A stretch of DNA of 64,000 bases. Source: an uncultured Clostridia bacterium. GTDB lineage: Bacteria > Bacillota > Clostridia > Lutisporales > Lutisporaceae. Positions 54,977 to 62,411 of this stretch are shown here, one piece after another. The notes under the pieces are model-generated. The model had not been told where the DNA came from and did not search any database. It saw only the letters and a list, made by a program, of their open reading frames with translations. Position 1 is the stretch's first letter. Each line of letters begins with the position of its first letter. Location: positions 1 through 64,000 of the forward strand of contig CALGKJ010000039.1 of assembly GCA_937930535.1 (NCBI GenBank). The letters run 5' to 3'. The translations under genes were made by a program, and so were the position numbers.

Positions 54977-55312
54977 TGGTGGAGGTGAGGGGACGCCGTA
55001 ATCCATTGTCTCCAATGGTGCTGACTATGAGTCGATACACAGCACTCCTCGGTATTGCCGTTGTAATGTTTATACATTACGGTTTCACCGATTAAGCCAG
55101 ATTTTCCATTGCAACTCACGTTGCACAGCGACCCTTTTGCAAATATGAAATTTGATCGAACCCCTGTCCGAAAGTGCTTCAACCAAAGCTTCTCCGAGCA
55201 CACGCTACTGCACGCCTTATCCTAAAGTGAGGTAACTAAAGGCAAGACGCTGCCATTAGGCAGCTAACGTGTAATTTTCGTTAGCGTTTAAATTTAGTTT
55301 CCAGATTTTTAA
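54977..55312 (-). pseudogene. ssrA: tmRNA (ssrA) 3' portion, 5'-truncated, intron-interrupted
   Basis: On the minus strand, GCTAACGAAAAT...GCTGCCTAA (55256-55285) encodes the tag ANENYTLAA and a stop, preceded by TCTGGAAACTAAATTTAAAC as in other tmRNA reading frames. The T-arm half AGGGGTTCGAT ends at 55155 and its partner TCCCCT lies at 54988-54993, next to CACCTCCACCA ending at 54977. Joining them gives a perfect 5-bp stem with loop TTCGATT. The canonical 5' end (GGGG...TTCGACAGGG) is missing. The sequence beyond 55312 is instead a plus-strand coding fragment. The space between tag and T-arm is only about 90 nt, so later pseudoknots seem lost. Confidence 0.75.
54994..55154 (-). ncRNA. Relic group I intron in the tmRNA T-loop
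   Basis: The 161-nt insertion splits the T-loop after the U of TTCGAU and ends in G. Exon CGAU can pair with intron GUCG, giving the U-G pair at the 5' splice site. AATCGGTGAAACCG..ACGGCAATACCGAG resembles the P4-P5 region of IC3 introns, and CCATTGGAGACAATGG (55003-55018) could be P9. P7-like GACT and AGTC are only 3 nt apart (55023-55033), so the P3'/P8 core appears deleted. It is shorter than the roughly 200-nt minimal self-splicing introns. Confidence 0.6.
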
Positions 55313-55483
55313 AGTGACGCTGGGACCACCGCTCGCTACCTCAATAACATTGTGGGACAAGGAATCGCCCATTTTGTCCCTCCTATCTTCAATCAGCCAA
55401 CAAGCATGCAACTCGTTCAGCATCCTGAGTTTCTTGAAGATTATTTTCCACTCAATTTAAGTAATCTTTGTTATGAGTGGTGA
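55313..55483 (+). pseudogene. C-terminal fragment of an unidentified plus-strand gene
   Basis: 56 codons open from a TAA at 55310 to TGA 55481. The product contains GTTARYLNNIVGQGIAHFVP, PTSMQLVQHPEFLEDYFPLN and ends CYEW. It reads as a genuine folded-protein tail with higher GC than its surroundings, but I do not recognise the family. The 5' part is missing exactly where the tmRNA loses its 5' end, so 55310-55315 is a recombination junction. It may be the end of a lost first gene of the downstream operon. Confidence 0.5.
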
Positions 55484-55542
55484 ATATACTAATATATGGT
55501 GCGACCACATATAATCTAGTATCTAATTGAGAGGTAATTGCA

Positions 55543-56505
55543 ATGATCAAGCTTGCTTTGATAGGCTGTGGAAAATGGGGAAAGAATTATCTGAAAACCG
55601 TAACTGCAATAGAGGGCTGTGAATTGAAGTGGGTCTGCGACCTTGACCATCAAAAGCTAAATCAGACCGCTCCTGTTTACCCTCAGACGAGGTTCACTGA
55701 AAACAAAGCAGATACATTGAATGACAGTGAGGTACAGGGGGTTATTATAGCTACAACACCTGAAAGCCATTACATACTGGCGAAGGAAGCAATAAACAAA
55801 GGCAAAGCTGTTCTCGTAGAAAAGCCTGTGACAATTAACAGGAAAGACAGTAATGATCTGATTGAATTGGCTGCTGCTAAAAATACCATATTGATGGCCG
55901 GCTACACATTGATTTACCATCCTGCTGTCAAAACGATAAAGGGGCTCCTAAAAGAAAAAGATATTAATGATCAGCTATATTACTTGAACATGTCCAGAAC
56001 CAGTTCGACCTCTCAGGCTCCTAACGTAGATGTTCTTCATGATCTGGCAGTTCATGATATTTATCTTTCCCGCCACTTGATAGGAGTCGACCCTATCTGG
56101 GTAATTGCCCATGGGAAAAGTTATATTCAAAATCCTTATAACAATGTTATTAATATATTGATAGGTTTCCCGGATGGTAAAATAGCTTCTATATTTGCAA
56201 GCTTAATTCATACCGAAAAAACCAGGAAAATTACACTGGTCTCATCCAAAACAAAATTAGTATTCGATGATGTGCAGACCACCGACAGAAAAATCCAACT
56301 CTTCGATAAGGTGGAGGGGGAGCATTTCTTGGCAGTTGAAGAGAATTTGGAACCTCTGACACAGGAGTGTCTTCATTTTATCGAATGCATTAGAGAAAAC
56401 AAGGAACCCCTTAGCGGCAGAAAAAATATTGATTTTGTGGCAAAAATAACTGATTGCATTTCCGATTCTCTCGCAAAAGGCGGAGAAAAAATCATCATCC
56501 GCTGA
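55543..56505 (+). CDS. Gfo/Idh/MocA family sugar oxidoreductase
   Basis: 320 residues. NAD(P)-binding Rossmann domain with ALIGCGKWGKNYLKTV at the N-terminus, VIIATTPESHY and VLVEKPVTIN (near 95, the EKP motif), and the C-terminal alpha/beta domain with DLAVHDIYLSRHL. It oxidises or reduces a nucleotide-sugar hydroxyl, typically C3. With a DegT aminotransferase in the same operon it could make a 3-amino sugar, as GnnA does with GnnB. It is the first gene of the operon, with GAGAGG before the ATG. Confidence 0.9.
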   Translation: MIKLALIGCGKWGKNYLKTVTAIEGCELKWVCDLDHQKLNQTAPVYPQTRFTENKADTLNDSEVQGVIIATTPESHYILAKEAINKGKAVLVEKPVTINRKDSNDLIELAAAKNTILMAGYTLIYHPAVKTIKGLLKEKDINDQLYYLNMSRTSSTSQAPNVDVLHDLAVHDIYLSRHLIGVDPIWVIAHGKSYIQNPYNNVINILIGFPDGKIASIFASLIHTEKTRKITLVSSKTKLVFDDVQTTDRKIQLFDKVEGEHFLAVEENLEPLTQECLHFIECIRENKEPLSGRKNIDFVAKITDCISDSLAKGGEKIIIR

Positions 56506-56546
56506 TAAAGACGGTAACCTTTTAATCAGGTAAGTGTGGTGAAATT

Positions 56547-57539
56547 ATGTTGGTTGTAAAGAACTATTCAAAAGAACTTGAGAATGAATGGGAGGGATTT
56601 GTCGGTTCCTCCGTTAACGGCACTTTTATGCAGGAGAGAAAATTCCTGGGTTATCATCCTTCAGACAAGTTTTCAGATCATTCCCTGATATTTATGGAGG
56701 ATAATAGAATCATTGCCGTTCTTCCTGCTGCCGCAGTACAACAAAAGGATAAACGCATCCTATATTCTCACCCCGGTGCTTCCCATGGAGGGCTGATTAT
56801 CAAGTCCAGTCTAAGCACTAAAAAATGCTTGGAGTTAGTAAATGCCCTTGTTGAATATTGTGTCATGACCGGTTTTGACTATATCCGGCTAAAACCTGTT
56901 CCGAAGGTTTACCATAGTGGGCTTTCGGACCAACTTGACTTTGCATTAAGGTTCTCGGGGTTTGCAATTGAGTATACAGAGCTGGCTACAGCCCTTGAGC
57001 TTAAGAAAGGCGAGGAAGATTATTTAAAGCAGGTGATGAATTCCACTGCTTTTCGAAACTATCAAAAGGCATTGAAAAGCGGACTTACGGTTATTGAGGA
57101 TGCAGATATAAATGATTATTGGGCTGTATTAGAGAATAAGCTTGAACTTAGCCATAATGCAAAGCCTACACATACATTTGAGGAAATCAAATACTTGAAA
57201 GAACTTTACCCTGATAGGATCAAGCTCTTTGCTGCTTTTAAAGGGGCAATCCTTACTGCGGGTGTTCTGGTTTTTTTACTGAACGAAAGAGTAATAAACT
57301 GTTTTTATATTGCCCACGACGACCGATACCAGCACATGCGGCCGCTAAACCTGATTTTTGGTTATATGATGGAGTGGGGAGGTCAAAACAGTTTTTCTTA
57401 TTTGGATTGGGGCATTTCCACTGAGGGAAAAGGAAGCAGCGTCAATGCTGGGCTATTCCGTTTCAAAGAAGGCTTTGGAGGGCATGGGGTATTGCGGGAG
57501 TGCTATTTGTATGATGTTAGAAACAACTTCAAATTTTAA
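56547..57539 (+). CDS. FemAB/GNAT-fold acyl- or aminoacyltransferase
   Basis: 330 residues of the FemAB-like acetyltransferase family. The N-terminal half has FMQERKFLGYHPSDKFSDHS and HPGASHGGLI. The C-terminal GNAT half has AAFKGAILTAGVLVFLLNERVINCFYIAHDD and LNLIFGYMMEWG..YLDWGIST. Such proteins transfer acyl or aminoacyl groups to amines, for example in cell-wall bridges or on aminosugars. It lies 41 nt after the oxidoreductase. It could N-acylate an aminosugar made by the operon. Confidence 0.85.
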   Translation: MLVVKNYSKELENEWEGFVGSSVNGTFMQERKFLGYHPSDKFSDHSLIFMEDNRIIAVLPAAAVQQKDKRILYSHPGASHGGLIIKSSLSTKKCLELVNALVEYCVMTGFDYIRLKPVPKVYHSGLSDQLDFALRFSGFAIEYTELATALELKKGEEDYLKQVMNSTAFRNYQKALKSGLTVIEDADINDYWAVLENKLELSHNAKPTHTFEEIKYLKELYPDRIKLFAAFKGAILTAGVLVFLLNERVINCFYIAHDDRYQHMRPLNLIFGYMMEWGGQNSFSYLDWGISTEGKGSSVNAGLFRFKEGFGGHGVLRECYLYDVRNNFKF

Positions 57540-57683
57540 CGAATGGTCAGAAGGAAAGTCCGCCACTTCTATAAGTGGGGGTGAATATACTAAAGAAAAT
57601 AAGTTTCAGTGGGGGTATAAATCCCCTTCTGAACTCGTTAAAATCACGATAGTGCAACGTAGTTGTAATATCGTCTTAATCTA

Positions 57684-57770
57684 TCCAGTTGTTTCTTATG
57701 AATAACCAAAATGCTTTAGCATTACAACTCTTAACGAAAAGTATTTTGAGTTTTAGAGTTGGTTAGTTAT
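57684..57770. repeat. Dispersed hairpin repeat F, copy 3
   Basis: CCAGTTGTTTCTTATG, a divergent middle, then CAACTCTTAACGAAAAGTAT, TTTTAGAGTTGGTTA. It shares the core and flanks with 38251-38321 and 43746-43818. It sits inside the sugar operon between the FemAB-like and wbqC genes. The rest of 57540-57796 has no gene. Confidence 0.75.
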
Positions 57771-57796
57771 AGTAAACAGTTTAGTGGGGTAGGGAA

Positions 57797-58486
57797 ATGA
57801 AATTAGCAGGGCATCAACCGAATTATATTCCCTGGCCGGGATACTTTGTTAAGATGGCACAGTGTGATATTTTTTTTATTTTAGATACTGCCCAGTTTCA
57901 AAGAGGCAGTTCATTGGATAATAGGAATCTTATCAAAACTTCCCAAGGCACTCAGATGCTCACTGTGCCGGTCAAACGTAAAGGCATGGGCTTGCAGCGA
58001 TTTGATGAAGTTATTGTTATACCGGGGTGGAAAAGGAATCATCTTATGGCACTTAAAGTAAACTACGCAAAGGCACCTTATTTCGAAGAAATTTTCCCGA
58101 TGCTGGAGCAGGTATTGCAAGATACCGGATATCTTATAGATACCAACATAGCTTTTATCACGCTTATACATGACCTGCTGGGACTTAAAACAAAGCTTGT
58201 TTTTTTATCAGCTTTACCTCAATTTGCTGATCTTAGAAAAAATGAACTGATATCTGCAATCTGCCGCCACTTTTCTGCTGACTGTTACCTGTCCGGCATT
58301 GGAGGGAGGGCATATAATCAACCCGAGATTTTTGAAAAACAAGGCATTAAGTTGGAATATCTGGACTATCAGCCTATAACATATCCGCAGCTTTGGGGTA
58401 GCTTTATCCCCAATCTGTCTATAGTTGATATGTTATTTAACTGTGGGGCAGAAGGCACACGCAAGCTTTTGTTGAAAGAGGTGTAG
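57797..58486 (+). CDS. WbqC family protein
   Basis: 229 residues. The WbqC-like start LAGHQPNYIPWPGYFVKMAQCDIFFILD, QFQRGSSLDNRNLIK and LTVPVKRKG are typical; the C-terminal half has CHFSADCYLSGIGGRAYNQPEIFEKQGI. WbqC proteins occur in O-antigen and surface-glycan clusters, often beside aminotransferases. Their chemistry is not settled. The gene is followed immediately (1 nt) by the CgeB-like gene. Confidence 0.9.
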   Translation: MKLAGHQPNYIPWPGYFVKMAQCDIFFILDTAQFQRGSSLDNRNLIKTSQGTQMLTVPVKRKGMGLQRFDEVIVIPGWKRNHLMALKVNYAKAPYFEEIFPMLEQVLQDTGYLIDTNIAFITLIHDLLGLKTKLVFLSALPQFADLRKNELISAICRHFSADCYLSGIGGRAYNQPEIFEKQGIKLEYLDYQPITYPQLWGSFIPNLSIVDMLFNCGAEGTRKLLLKEV

Positions 58487-58487
58487 T

Positions 58488-59462
58488 ATGATCAGGGTAC
58501 TGTTTTTTTCACATAGTTCGAAATATACTCTTGGGCTGCCCCAAGGCTTTAGGGAACTGAATTGCCCTGTTTTTGTCCTGAGGGATTTAAGTAGAAATTC
58601 TATAAAAGAGGCAGTTGACCACTTTAGACCTGACCTTATGATAACAACGGGATGGGCTTACCGAGGGCATAAACGTGAGCATGTAGATGAGCTGGTCAAA
58701 AGAACTGCTAAATATAAGGTGAAACATATCTATTGGGCAACTGAAGATCCAAGATGGATGGTCGAGTGCTCTTTCAAGTGTATTGAAATCTATAAACCTG
58801 ATGCAGTTATGACCATACATACTGATAGTGTAAATAAATACAGAGAGTTAGGGCTTCCTGCCGGACAACTGGATTTTGGCTGCAATCCTCAATTTAATAA
58901 GCATGAACCCCCATGCAGTAAATATGATTATGATGTGGCTTTAGTGGGAAACGGCGGCAAAGCTTGGAAATCCCATCGAAAGGATAGCGTTCAGATACTT
59001 TTAAAGCCTTTGGTCGAAAGGGGCTTTAACCTTGCGATCTGGGGTAAGCGATGGGATCGTTTCAACGAGAAGCTGATGGGTTTTAAGCTTCCGAAGCATA
59101 TGCTCAAAGGGGAGCTTCCCTATGAGGAAACAAACAAGGTTTATAATTCAGCCAAAATAATAATAGGTTTGCAAAACGACCAGACAATGCTGACTTCTCG
59201 GACTTTTGAAGTACTGGGTTCAGGCGGGTTTTTGCTGACAGTACCTACGCAGTCGGTCAATAATTTGTTTACAAACAATTTTCATCTGACATGTTCATCT
59301 TCCCCCGAACATACAGTCAGACTTGTTGATTATTTTTTGAAACATGAGGCTGAGCGTCAGGCAATAGCGCAAAACGGGCAGCGGGAGGTCTACTTAAAGC
59401 ATACGTATAAGGAACGTGCCAATCAGATTTTGAAATTCATGCAGCTATATGAAAGGAATTGA
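58488..59462 (+). CDS. CgeB-like glycosyltransferase
   Basis: 324 residues. GT-B-like fold with MITTGWAYRG and HIYWATEDPRW in the first half and YDYDVALVGNGG, LPYEETNKVYNSAKIIIGLQND, SRTFEVLGSGGFLLTV and LVDYFLKHEAERQAIAQNGQ in the second, all features of the CgeB/spore-protein glycosyltransferase family. CgeB in Bacillus is linked to the outermost spore layer. It may transfer the sugar made by this operon. The ribosome site AGAGGTG lies in the end of wbqC. Confidence 0.88.
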   Translation: MIRVLFFSHSSKYTLGLPQGFRELNCPVFVLRDLSRNSIKEAVDHFRPDLMITTGWAYRGHKREHVDELVKRTAKYKVKHIYWATEDPRWMVECSFKCIEIYKPDAVMTIHTDSVNKYRELGLPAGQLDFGCNPQFNKHEPPCSKYDYDVALVGNGGKAWKSHRKDSVQILLKPLVERGFNLAIWGKRWDRFNEKLMGFKLPKHMLKGELPYEETNKVYNSAKIIIGLQNDQTMLTSRTFEVLGSGGFLLTVPTQSVNNLFTNNFHLTCSSSPEHTVRLVDYFLKHEAERQAIAQNGQREVYLKHTYKERANQILKFMQLYERN

Positions 59463-59463
59463 A

Positions 59464-60324
59464 ATGTGTAATCAGACAACAATCAATCATAAGGTTTCCG
59501 TAATAGGCACCAGTATAGCCGGTGAAACAGATGCAAAGGTTACTTTTTGTCCGGCACCAACCGATACAGGAATAGTATTTGTCCGTAATGACCTGACCGG
59601 CTGCCCTAAAGTAAAATGCTCAGTTGAAAAAGCAAATATTGAATACAGATGGACTTCTCTTGCTGACGGAGATGTTCGCATTGAACACACGGAGCATGCT
59701 TTGGCAGCCATATCAGGATTAGGTTTGGACAACGTATTTATTGAGTTGGAACAAGCCAGCCTGCCCGTGACAACCGATTACAGCAGTAAAGAGTTCACAC
59801 GGGTGCTCACGGAAGCTGGGATAGTGGAACAATCCTCTAAGAAAGGAAGTATGAAAATACATAAGCCAATTATTGTATATAATCGTGAAAGTTCAGAGGA
59901 TATGGAATATGAAAAGCTGCTGATAGCTCTTCCTTACGATGGGTTTAAACTAACCTATGTGCTTGACTATCCCAAGCTGCCACAATTATATCAAGTCGCT
60001 GAAATGGACATAACTCCCGAAACCTTTGCCAAAGAGTTGGCGGATGCCCGTTCTTATATAATTGAGTCGGAGCTTGAAGAGGTTGTAAACCTGACCGGAA
60101 AAGTCAGCTTAAATGTATTGGTGGTCAAATCTGGGGCTGAGAAAATGGAGTGGAAATGGTCCAATGAACCTGCCCGGCATAAAGTGCTGGATCTTCTCGG
60201 TGACCTTGGCTTGCTTGGGAAAAAGGTACTGGGACATGTGATAGGCTTCCGATCCGGTCACCGGTTGAATCTAGAGCTGTGCAAAAAAATTTATGAGGAG
60301 TGTAATGATGATTGCTTTAGCTAA
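59464..60324 (+). CDS. LpxC-like UDP-sugar N-deacetylase
   Basis: 286 residues from ATG 59464 (AAAGGA), just behind the CgeB stop. It aligns with E. coli LpxC at nearly the same numbering: E77-H78 in VRIEHTEHALAAISGLGLDN (zinc His and general base Glu), D105 in TTDYSS, H239/K240/D243 in NEPARHKVLDLLGDL (zinc His and Asp), and H266 in GFRSGHRLN. ARSYII replaces the ARTFGF loop. LpxC removes the N-acetyl of UDP-3-O-acyl-GlcNAc in lipid A synthesis. No other lipid A gene is seen here, so a different N-acetylated nucleotide-sugar is likely the substrate. Confidence 0.9.
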   Translation: MCNQTTINHKVSVIGTSIAGETDAKVTFCPAPTDTGIVFVRNDLTGCPKVKCSVEKANIEYRWTSLADGDVRIEHTEHALAAISGLGLDNVFIELEQASLPVTTDYSSKEFTRVLTEAGIVEQSSKKGSMKIHKPIIVYNRESSEDMEYEKLLIALPYDGFKLTYVLDYPKLPQLYQVAEMDITPETFAKELADARSYIIESELEEVVNLTGKVSLNVLVVKSGAEKMEWKWSNEPARHKVLDLLGDLGLLGKKVLGHVIGFRSGHRLNLELCKKIYEECNDDCFS

Positions 60325-61387
60325 ACCCATGATTGGTATAGAGGAAAAAATACTGGTCAATGAAGTTCTTTCCAGTGGAAAATTAGCCCAGGGAGAATAT
60401 GTAGAAAGGTTTGAACAGGACTTTGCTGCATTTCAGGATAGTAAGCATTGTGTCGCCGCCTCTTCAGGAACCTCGGCCCTTCATGCGGCACTGCTGTCTT
60501 TGGATATTAAACCGGGGGACAAAGTGATAACCACACCTTTCTCATTTATTGCAACTACAAATGCCATTCTTTATGTGCAAGCTGTTCCTGTCTTTTGTGA
60601 CATTGATCTGCAGGATTACAACATTTCGCCTCAAGAGCTTCTGAATACCATCAAAAACCATCCTGATTCAAAAGCAATCATAGTAGTCCATCTTTATGGG
60701 TATCCCGCTCGTATGGCAGAGCTAATGGCAATAGCCGATAAATACAATCTGGCAGTGATAGAGGATTGTGCACAAGCTCACGGTGCATCAATTAATGGCA
60801 AGAAGGTTGGAACTTTTGGGCACTTTGGGTTTTTTAGCTTTTATCCTACAAAAAATATGACCTGCGGAGAAGGCGGCATGCTTACGACTTGGGACAAAGA
60901 GCTGGCAGGTAATGCTAGGACGTTGATAAATCATGGACAGACAGCTAAATACCAGCATGATGTGCTTGGGTATAATTACAGGATGACCAATATACATGCG
61001 GCAATAGGCATAGAACAGCTGCGCAAGCTGACTGGCTTTAATGAAAGACGCAAAACTATTGCGGCCCGATATTCGAGGGAGATAACCAACCCCGCTTTTA
61101 TTAAGCCCGTATGCTTACCGGGCTTTCAGCATGTATATCACCAATATACCCTTGGGATTAATAACCGGAGCAGTTTCATAGAGTTTATGGAAACACAGGG
61201 TATTGGATATGGCATCCATTATCCCACAGCTATCCCTGACCAACCCCTGTATCAGCAGGGAGCAATCCTCGGATCTTTCTCAAATGCCCGCATAGCTTCT
61301 AAAAGGGTAGTTTCAATACCTGTTCACCCGGGATTAACAGAACAGGAGGTTGATTATATTGTCAGCAGCTTACAAAAGTATGCATGA
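60305..61387 (+). CDS. DegT/DnrJ/EryC1/StrS sugar aminotransferase
   Basis: 360 residues from ATG 60305 (GAGGAG), overlapping the LpxC-like gene by 20 nt. PLP enzyme with SSGTSALHAALL, TPFSFIATTNAI, EDCAQAHGA (Asp154 and Gln157 contact PLP) and the Schiff-base Lys183 in FYPTKNMTCGEGG. RTLINHGQ and YRMTNIHAAIG are typical. It transfers an amino group to a keto-sugar made by the oxidoreductase, yielding an amino sugar nucleotide. Overlaps on both sides indicate tight coupling. Confidence 0.94.
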   Translation: MMIALAKPMIGIEEKILVNEVLSSGKLAQGEYVERFEQDFAAFQDSKHCVAASSGTSALHAALLSLDIKPGDKVITTPFSFIATTNAILYVQAVPVFCDIDLQDYNISPQELLNTIKNHPDSKAIIVVHLYGYPARMAELMAIADKYNLAVIEDCAQAHGASINGKKVGTFGHFGFFSFYPTKNMTCGEGGMLTTWDKELAGNARTLINHGQTAKYQHDVLGYNYRMTNIHAAIGIEQLRKLTGFNERRKTIAARYSREITNPAFIKPVCLPGFQHVYHQYTLGINNRSSFIEFMETQGIGYGIHYPTAIPDQPLYQQGAILGSFSNARIASKRVVSIPVHPGLTEQEVDYIVSSLQKYA

Positions 61388-62411
61388 AATCAATGATCCT
61401 CTGAGTGTATTGGTTACAGGTGCTGGTTCCGTATACGGTCTGGGCATTATCAGGGCACTTAAAGCATCAGTGCTACCTATTGAAATAACAGCAATTGACA
61501 TTAACCCATATTCCCTAGGTTTATTTTTTGCCGACAAAGGCTTTATCGCTCCCTTGGCAGCAGCTGAAGAAAGCTATTATATGTTTATTGAAAACCTTTG
61601 TAAAGATCATCAGATTGAAGCGATATTTATCGGCTCTACAGCGGAGCTTTCATTTTATGCAAAAAATAGAGAATCTCTTGAAAGGTCTACAGGAGCAAAG
61701 GTGTTTGTAAATTCCCCTGCAGTTATAGAGATTTGCACCGATAAGTGGCTGACCATGTGCCATTTGTCACGCTTGGGTTTTCAAATACCTGCAAGTATCA
61801 GGTATCCTGAAGATACTGGTATGCTCTCCTCATTTGTTAAAAGCGCAGGTTTTCCCTTGATAGTTAAGCCTCGTATGGGACGTGGCTCAGAAGGTGTCGT
61901 TCTGGTTAAGGATAAGCAGCAGCTGCATGGAAATGTAAAGGGTAAGAAAAGCTTAATTATTCAGGAATACCTCACAGATGAGGAGCAAGAGTTTACTGTG
62001 GGGATTTGTATTAATCAAAAGGGAAAGGTTATTTCCAAAATCGCTTTAAGGCGGTATTTGCAGGAAGGAGTTTCTATTACTGCAGTTTCTGATGGTTATC
62101 AACATATTGCAGATTATTGTGCGGTCGTTGCAAGTACACTGAGAGCGTATGGGGCTATAAATATTCAATTGCGCCTCAAAGATGGAATGCCAATAATTTT
62201 TGAAATAAATCCTAGATTCAGCAGTTCCACAGGTATGCGGTTACTATTTGGAATAAATGAGCCGGAAAGCTTAATACGCTCAGAAGTGCTTTGCCAAGAG
62301 GTAATACCCGGCAGCGCAGCAACTGGCGTTGTATTGAGGCAATACAACGATTATTACTTTCCGCTAGATAAGCTTAACTCGCTTTCTACAGCCAGGCTTC
62401 ACCATATATAA
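61359..62411 (+). CDS. ATP-grasp ligase, CarB/PylC-like
   Basis: 350 residues from TTG 61359 (AGGAGG 9 nt upstream), overlapping the aminotransferase end. Preceding Rossmann-like domain: VLVTGAGSVYGLGIIRAL. ATP-grasp: FPLIVKPRMGRGSEGVVLV (near 168), IIQEYL, and metal-binding IIFEINPRFSSSTGMR (near 280). It would join a carboxylate to an amine, for example an amino acid to the amino sugar, or carbamoylate or phosphorylate a small acid. It is the last gene before a terminator. The substrate is unknown. Confidence 0.88.
   Translation: MSAAYKSMHEINDPLSVLVTGAGSVYGLGIIRALKASVLPIEITAIDINPYSLGLFFADKGFIAPLAAAEESYYMFIENLCKDHQIEAIFIGSTAELSFYAKNRESLERSTGAKVFVNSPAVIEICTDKWLTMCHLSRLGFQIPASIRYPEDTGMLSSFVKSAGFPLIVKPRMGRGSEGVVLVKDKQQLHGNVKGKKSLIIQEYLTDEEQEFTVGICINQKGKVISKIALRRYLQEGVSITAVSDGYQHIADYCAVVASTLRAYGAINIQLRLKDGMPIIFEINPRFSSSTGMRLLFGINEPESLIRSEVLCQEVIPGSAATGVVLRQYNDYYFPLDKLNSLSTARLHHI

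Follow-up and report, generated by a model that had tools for sequence, protein, structure and literature searches.

Seven open reading frames occupy positions 55543-62411 on the plus strand of the window, that is, the whole 64,000-nt stretch of DNA from an uncultured Clostridia bacterium that was analyzed. They encode a Gfo/Idh/MocA oxidoreductase, a FemAB-like transferase, a WbqC protein, a CgeB-like glycosyltransferase, an LpxC homolog, a DegT aminotransferase, and an ATP-grasp ligase, labeled below, in 5' to 3' window order, GFO, FEM, WBQ, CGE, LPX, DEG, and ATP (Table 1). All the ORFs listed in an earlier, sequence-only reading of this DNA are present, and each family is confirmed by a profile match. 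That reading also described the genes as packed with overlaps, which holds for CGE/LPX, LPX/DEG, and DEG/ATP, but not for GFO and FEM, which are 41 nt apart, or for FEM and WBQ, separated by 257 nt. This last gap is due to an insertion of about 230 nt that is unique to the window copy among cassettes. It takes the place of the final few codons of FEM and has a second copy (95%) in the same genome (G000:C146:45968-46118).

Table 1. Features of the seven-gene locus and its left flank (window coordinates).
Feature	Position	Strand	Basis
tmRNA (ssrA), adjoining the left end of the cassette	54977..55370	-	RF00023, 33.6 bits, under gathering score 47, E 1e-11
Left boundary and promoter region	55451..55542	+	homology among 16 loci begins near 55451
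AATATACTA, with AATC/AACA position 16 nt ahead; second element CATATAAT; ribosome site GAGAGG	55483-55491 (AATATACTA); 55508-55515 (second element)	+	sigma-K-like pattern test
GFO, Gfo/Idh/MocA NAD-dependent sugar oxidoreductase	55543..56505	+	PF01408, 71 bits
FEM, FemAB/GNAT-type acyl or aminoacyl transferase	56547..57539	+	PF02388, 25.5 bits, barely above cut-off 24
Insertion between FEM and WBQ, ~230 nt	57515..57769	+	alignment gap versus all loci
WBQ, WbqC family protein	57797..58486	+	PF08889, 225 bits
CGE, CgeB-like GT-B glycosyltransferase	58488..59462	+	Glyco_trans_1_2 PF13524, 104 bits; DUF3880 PF12996, 33 bits
LPX, LpxC-family zinc deacetylase paralog	59464..60324	+	PF03331, 208 bits (cut-off 27)
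DEG, DegT/DnrJ/EryC1 PLP sugar aminotransferase, optional cassette member	60293..61387	+	PF01041, 391 bits
ATP, ATP-grasp ligase, carbamoyl-phosphate-synthase-like	61350..62411 (start approximate)	+	NF009402, 310 bits, cut-off 218

The LPX reading frame opens at 59449, and the conserved start is probably the ATG at 59464. FEM scores 42.9 bits against TIGR03019, under the cut-off of that model. A PDB search with WBQ and CGE returned no relative, and the AlphaFold models of LPX (4 sequences, mean pLDDT 30) and WBQ (14 sequences, pLDDT 37) were unusable. On the right, homology among loci ends at the ATP stop codon, which is taken as the boundary of the cassette.

The combination of seven families that the sequence-only reading had singled out is real and recurrent: it was recovered in 27 genomes from two Bacillota classes, with 16 loci in the first class and 11 in the second, plus one remnant (L142). 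Gene order is fixed among the first-class loci, whose identity ranges from 67 to 92%, although DEG is missing in six of them (Clostridium) and three are damaged; in the second class the order is slightly permuted and LPX identity is 42-46%. Flanks are mostly unrelated among the first-class loci, and carriers are sporadic (9/208 species in a Clostridiaceae set, 4/391 in a class sample). The seven genes form a discrete cassette, and their gene-for-gene recurrence is far beyond chance. Neither its mobility nor its spread over two classes was visible from the window alone. No earlier description of such a cassette was found in the literature searched. Nothing relevant turned up on LpxC in combination with the spore coat or with FemAB/DegT, and a search on WbqC gave no functional study as judged by titles and abstracts.

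For most cassette genes, synonymous divergence (pS) between genera lies near 0.12-0.24, versus 0.80-0.98 for sigG/sigE, so the cassette moves horizontally; LPX and CGE alleles are mosaic. Cassette DNA matched no plasmid, and a phage search with LPX found ordinary LpxC only (27-32% identity), so neither was seen as the vehicle. Deletions affect 9 of the 16 first-class copies: DEG was lost at five distinct junctions in six Clostridium genomes, without damage to the body of either LPX or ATP, and WBQ and ATP were lost jointly in Anaerosolibacter (L028, L029), which gives the WbqC family a partner in the ATP-grasp ligase. No ortholog of DEG is found elsewhere in the DEG-less genomes, where relatives are only 31-39% identical. 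Taken with the L142 remnant, so many deletions could indicate decaying junk without function, but this is highly improbable given how the five separate DEG junctions spare LPX and ATP and given the dN/dS values, which are 0.07-0.4 across cassette genes and 0.1-0.3 in all six remaining genes when two loci sharing one DEG deletion (L019 and L022) are compared. The cassette genes are under purifying selection, also where DEG is deleted.

LpxC is a heavily studied antibiotic target, and its presence is taken to indicate lipid A and a diderm envelope. LPX, the single LpxC of the window genome, clearly belongs to this family, its PF03331 match (207.7 bits, cut-off 27) covering positions 1-267 of 268. 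It nonetheless scores 151 bits, under the cut-off of 187.25, against the lpxC equivalog TIGR00325, and is therefore not a standard LpxC. The active-site residues proposed from the window sequence (E77, H78, H239, D243, H266) are right if translation begins at ATG 59464. Along with K240 and D247, they do not vary within the cassette family (26/26 LPX compared); in E. coli numbering these are the zinc ligands H79/H238/D242 and the catalytic residues E78, K239, D246, and H265. By contrast, H19 is found in 0/26 LPX, the D105-G106 pair (DG of the DGS motif) is never intact in the sequences printed, and T191 is replaced by S. All 26 also lack some of the insert that lines the acyl tunnel: in insert II (LxLGGS, acyl site), G210/S211 are replaced and positions 206-207 deleted. 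H19, DGS, and LxLGGS are retained in nearly all of the 33 lipid-A LpxCs aligned. In a tree, LPX members form one clade (SH-aLRT 100, branch 1.39) apart from 35 lipid-A LpxCs.

The genomic setting of LPX also differs from that of lipid A enzymes. As the sequence-only reading had supposed, no lipid A pathway lies elsewhere in the genome: LpxB and KdtA/WaaA (PF04413) are absent from the window genome and three relatives (four carriers), and no LpxD match in the window genome exceeds the cut-off, the only ones seen being weak hexapeptide matches. These absences indicate that the cassette does not make lipid A. Other Bacillota are diderm and do have lipid A (PMC5007114); their lpxC-fabZ-lpxA-lpxI-lpxB clusters share a PF03331 gene with the cassette, but have other neighbors and an LpxC of a separate clade. 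From the LpxC homology and intact catalytic residues of LPX, one could still imagine that a diderm ancestor left behind a relict or reduced version of the lipid A pathway, in which LPX acts on UDP-3-acyl-GlcNAc. Given the missing genes, the placement of LPX outside all lipid-A LpxCs, its loss of H19 and of part of the acyl-tunnel insert, and the youth of the cassette in its hosts, we regard this as having next to no chance of being right. We lean, by a small margin over even, toward LpxC having an ancient second branch that serves no lipid A role and operates in endospore-forming monoderms. There it would belong to a mobile cassette supplying the spore surface with a deacetylated amino sugar, and the chemistry of this cassette would have been altered in nature whenever DegT (Clostridium) or WbqC together with ATP-grasp (Anaerosolibacter) was precisely lost, as has happened repeatedly.

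The sequence-only reading had further likened GFO and DEG to GnnA/GnnB, which make UDP-GlcNAc3N for some lipid A molecules. The cassette does share a Gfo/Idh/MocA and DegT pair with GnnA/GnnB and WlbA/WbpE-type systems, and DEG indeed resembles 3-keto-sugar aminotransferases, QdtB and WbpE being among its nearest solved relatives in the PDB. However, the top NCBIfam model for GFO, NF040723 (UDP-GlcNAc 3-dehydrogenase), gives 118 bits, far under its cut-off of 450; C3 oxidation of UDP-GlcNAc is the probable, putative GFO reaction. Moreover, a 3-aminotransferase partner is not obligatory, DEG being absent from 6 of the 16 first-class cassettes while its neighbors are under selection, so that an obligatory GnnA/GnnB pairing is unsupported. 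DEG-less cassettes would fit a strict 3-amino-sugar route poorly, unless another aminotransferase substitutes.

As to where the sugar goes, surface or spore glycans had both been proposed, and the data favor spores. Two CotE genes flank the cassette at each of L137 and L139 (98, 106, 67, and 93 bits, cut-off 25), together with a CotS-family gene at L137 (226 bits, cut-off 172.7) and the same APH/CotS-type gene at L139. These neighbors occur in two genera of one family only and are absent at other loci, including the Clostridium and window flanks, and the CotE/CotS neighborhood may represent one event. Upstream of the cassette, a relaxed sigma-K-like motif is present at 14/27 loci (shuffles: mean 0.33, maximum 3), the pattern having been relaxed post hoc, after viewing the sequences; the strict form CATANNNTA occurs at 1/27. 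The -35 element reads AATC rather than AACA in the window and [AC]AC[AC] at other loci, and the AC-type -35 and CATA-type -10 match sigma-K promoters of C. difficile and B. thuringiensis (PMC3789822, PMC4750369). Consensus scans for sigma-E, sigma-G, and sigma-A gave 0-1 of 27 loci, the sigma-A pattern being found in 0/27 upstream regions versus 2.5 expected. sigK is full-length in three f1 carriers and present in both split and joined form in the window genome. A hairpin considered in the leader RNA was rejected, as changes in L020 and L024 break the pairing (by eye); the leader element is thus at most a DNA element.

The spore crust genes of B. subtilis (cgeAB-E, spsA-L) are a close parallel: they too include a CgeB-type glycosyltransferase, and an aminotransferase and an acyltransferase among sugar-modifying enzymes, and mother-cell expression has been proposed for them (PMC10502511), as for the cassette. 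The cassette differs in being compact and horizontally mobile. To our knowledge, sps/cge also lacks the LpxC, WbqC, and ATP-grasp set. CgeB is listed among the B. subtilis crust glycosyltransferases and rhamnose is a sugar of that crust (PMC10502511); rmlB/C/D adjoin the cassette in a second-class pair (L140/L141). The same rml neighbors would suit a vegetative surface glycan unrelated to spores, such as a capsule, S-layer, teichoic acid, or flagellin decoration moving as an antigenic or phage-receptor variant, and mobility, sporadic presence, mosaic alleles, and the DegT/Gfo/WbqC families are all typical of such variable loci. This explanation is unlikely, though to be taken seriously, as it is at odds with the CotE and CotS neighbors, with upstream elements that resemble sigma-K rather than sigma-A promoters, and with a gene content that includes no flagellin, S-layer, or polymerase/flippase gene.

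The best reading is that of a horizontally mobile, sporulation-linked cassette that probably decorates the spore surface with a diamino sugar, for which we infer the substrate, step order, acceptor, and sigma-K control. C3 of a UDP-GlcNAc-type sugar would be oxidized by GFO and, in cassettes that have DEG, would then receive an amino group from that enzyme. LPX would remove the N-acetyl group by LpxC-type zinc chemistry, its substrate carrying no long acyl chain. The amines exposed in this way could then be acylated or aminoacylated by FEM and by the ATP-grasp ligase together with WBQ. CGE would attach the sugar to a coat or exosporium acceptor, with the decoration being made by the mother cell at a late stage of sporulation. 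How the acyl and ligase steps are ordered is a guess, here as in the sequence-only reading. Mycothiol (MshA-D) and bacillithiol (BshA-C) synthesis follows a comparable logic of glycosyltransferase, zinc deacetylase, ATP-dependent ligase, and acyltransferase. A small-molecule conjugate of this kind, with CGE joining GlcNAc to a small acceptor, LPX deacetylating, ATP-grasp adding an amino acid, and FEM acylating, is very unlikely: every carrier examined retains GFO, for which such a scheme has no use, the deacetylases of both pathways belong to the PIG-L family rather than LpxC, and the coat-gene neighbors and promoter type favor spores.

A recurrent non-lipid-A LpxC branch in monoderm spore formers implies that an LpxC match alone is insufficient to call an outer membrane. 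LPX is also a naturally occurring LpxC variant whose acyl site is changed, useful for specificity studies. The cassette hints at an undescribed, horizontally moving spore-surface sugar chemistry and makes it testable which glycans lie outermost on the spores of many clostridia. Of note, the ssrA gene at its left end was found by Rfam and missed by ARAGORN, and ssrA-like pieces flank the cassette on either side in two relatives.

Seven plus-strand ORFs proposed from the sequence alone at 55543-62411 were borne out, hmmscan assigning every one to its named family: a Gfo/Idh/MocA oxidoreductase (GFO), a FemAB-like transferase (FEM), WbqC (WBQ), a CgeB-like glycosyltransferase (CGE), an LpxC-family paralogue (LPX), a DegT aminotransferase (DEG) and an ATP-grasp ligase (ATP). 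The LPX residues E77, H78, H239, D243 and H266 were also read correctly, with numbering from the ATG at 59464. The tight overlapping packing holds for CGE/LPX, LPX/DEG and DEG/ATP only, and fails between FEM and WBQ, where a gap of 257 nt corresponds to an insertion unique to the window genome, which has another copy of it (95%) at a different place. This short repeated insertion (see table) contains the palindrome CCACTTCTATAAGTGG, which is also present immediately 3' of the cassette at L027, a Clostridia locus.

The cassette is not a lipid A locus. As the sequence-only reading had anticipated, the window genome (252 contigs totalling 4.69 Mb, completeness 97%), which has a single LpxC, contains neither LpxB nor KdtA/WaaA, and a search for LpxD gave weak hexapeptide matches only. 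A PF03331 protein is found in four of the 391 sampled genomes of the class, all four in the window's family. One relative, G005, which likewise has no LpxB or WaaA, encodes in an aminosugar/polysaccharide locus a pair of LpxD-like proteins that score 210 and 141 bits, both below cut-off.

LPX can be aligned over its full length with LpxC proteins of known structure, P. aeruginosa-type chains scoring 137 bits. Cassette LPX (26 sequences) and lipid-A LpxC (35, mostly from Bacillota, plus Acinetobacter and E. coli) form two groups in a tree built by a quick method without bootstrap, separated by an internal branch of 1.39 with SH-aLRT 100. E78, H79, H238, K239, D242, D246 and H265 are kept in all cassette LPX, and T191 is replaced by S. 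None of them has H19 (present in 33 of 33 others compared), the intact DGS-motif pair D105-G106 or, within insert II, the LGGS stretch and residues 206-207. Because insert II lines the acyl tunnel in the LpxC structure, these sequence changes suggest that LPX would be a deacetylase acting on a substrate without a long acyl chain.

Co-occurrence of the seven families in clostridial genomes, a search proposed with the original observation, was found at 15 loci in addition to the window, some copies being incomplete. Used as query, the LPX alignment found these loci among 84,980 species genomes, and they belong to Clostridium (nine), Anaerosolibacter (two), Candidatus Formimonas warabiya and three relatives of the window, the last three being metagenome or oddly named assemblies. 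The locus L025 (JAJGRE010000005.1), titled 'Calditrichales bacterium MX18-03', apparently comes from the same assembly as G005, since both have a contig of 280,100 bases. The genome set assigns G005 to the family of the window, and the title of L025 looks wrong. In the 15 loci and the window, gene order is GFO-FEM-WBQ-CGE-LPX-(DEG)-ATP, the cassette ends sharply about 90 nt 5' of GFO and at the stop codon of ATP; its flanks are mostly unrelated from locus to locus, with neighbours common to a few pairs only. A second class within the phylum has LPX in 12 of 113 genomes: one carries a remnant, and 11 carry the full set of seven families, arranged as GFO-FEM-CGE-LPX-DEG-WBQ-ATP or, in L140 and L141, as a variant of this, with proteins at 30-53% identity.

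The cassette differs between the window and relatives in other genera by 12-24% at synonymous positions for most genes, versus 75-98% for sigG and the neighbouring sigma gene, a contrast that indicates horizontal movement; the cassette DNA is 83-88% identical to that of Clostridium sensu stricto. LPX and CGE are mosaic: between the window and its relative L030, synonymous divergence is 0.52 for LPX and 0.12-0.23 for the other cassette genes, and the L030 LPX clusters with Anaerosolibacter and Formimonas in the tree. No integrase was found within the cassette, and a plasmid search found no plasmid copy. Since ssrA (tmRNA) or its fragments adjoin the cassette in the window and flank it on either side in two relatives, ssrA may be the entry site. 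The window tmRNA departs from the Rfam model by an insertion of about 162 nt in the T-loop and by the loss of about 100 nt from the pseudoknot region, and is possibly a small intron-bearing or decayed copy; that of L030 is ordinary.

Across the cassette, dN/dS is 0.07-0.4. DEG is absent from six Clostridium copies via five distinct junctions (L018; L019/L022, in common; L021; L023; L026), each sparing the bodies of LPX and ATP; in L019/L022 the remaining genes are at dN/dS 0.11-0.32, and other DegT proteins in the DEG-less Clostridium genomes reach only 31-39% identity. Both Anaerosolibacter copies have WBQ and ATP disrupted, at differing junctions, and the rest intact. We infer a core of GFO, FEM, CGE and LPX, with an optional aminotransferase and WBQ-ATP as an optional pair acting jointly. 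The LPX copy of L027 (same gene in L007), with an internal deletion and frame change at residues 22-57, is probably inactive.

We consider it fairly likely that the cassette product decorates the spore surface. Next to the cassette in L137 and L139, second-class loci from two genera within a single family, are two CotE genes, scoring 98 and 106 bits in the first and 67 and 93 bits in the second against a cut-off of 25, together with a CotS-family gene, which in L137 scores 226 bits against 172.7; in L140/L141 the cassette adjoins rhamnose genes; no coat genes are among the neighbours at the other loci. CgeB is among the listed crust glycosyltransferases of B. subtilis, whose crust sugars include rhamnose and legionaminic acid (PMC10502511). 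Upstream of GFO, the sigma-K-like pattern [AC]AC[AC]-N15-17-HATANNNTA is present at 14 of 27 loci versus 0.33 in shuffles (maximum 3), the loci being related and the pattern relaxed after inspection; the strict form occurs at one of 27, the window copy deviates at -35, and sigma-A patterns are absent upstream of GFO at the 27 loci. In C. difficile, AC is found at -35 of sigma-K promoters, whose -10 is common to sigma-E (PMC3789822). The AC at -35 and CATA-type -10 at the cassette loci match sigma-K promoters of this species and of B. thuringiensis (PMC4750369). Full-length sigK is found in three carriers of the window's family; in the window assembly the gene is both interrupted and joined, as if a skin-like element had been excised from it in part of the population. 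In the relative G010 (L152), the two sigK halves are separated by about 1.6 kb and enclose the gene for a serine recombinase of 455 aa.

In the proposed pathway, GFO would probably oxidize C3 of a UDP-GlcNAc sugar, as its nearest NCBIfam model suggests at a score far below cut-off; DEG is close to 3-keto-sugar aminotransferases such as QdtB and WbpE; LPX would release the 2-amine, FEM and ATP/WBQ would add groups and CGE would transfer the sugar onto a spore-surface acceptor, both acceptor and step order being putative. DEG-less cassettes would make a different product or use a substitute enzyme. The paper library yielded no description of LpxC with spore coat or with FemAB/DegT, in keeping with the initial view that no described pathway with such a combination was known in Clostridia. 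Spore-surface glycan genes are already known as a kind; the novelty here lies in the cassette's mobility, its LpxC paralogue and its fixed content of seven genes.

Four genomes within a single family encode a Lys-rich protein divergently from GFO. In L098 and L099, the two examined over their whole length, VPxSCI motifs are repeated and each protein has a C-terminal hydrophobic stretch; the one scanned (L098) had no Pfam match. This protein is a candidate acceptor.

Coordinates of features in the window and at compared loci
Feature	Locus	Position
Repeated insertion with palindrome	window	57515-57769
Second copy of insertion	window genome	G000:C146:45968-46118
tmRNA	window	54977-55370 (-)
tmRNA-like fragments flanking cassette	L006	7851-8193, 15155-15258
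tmRNA-like fragments flanking cassette	L007	1-41, 7024-7311, 13228-13387
LPX with internal deletion	L027	9943-10702
LpxD-like pair	L104	G005:C8:943341-946357
sigK in window genome	L150	G000:C12:2573-2926
sigK in window genome	L151	end of contig G000:C13
Lys-rich protein	L098	9116-10144
Lys-rich protein	L099	9248-10315
Lys-rich protein	L135	10138-10854
Lys-rich protein	L136	10116-11192
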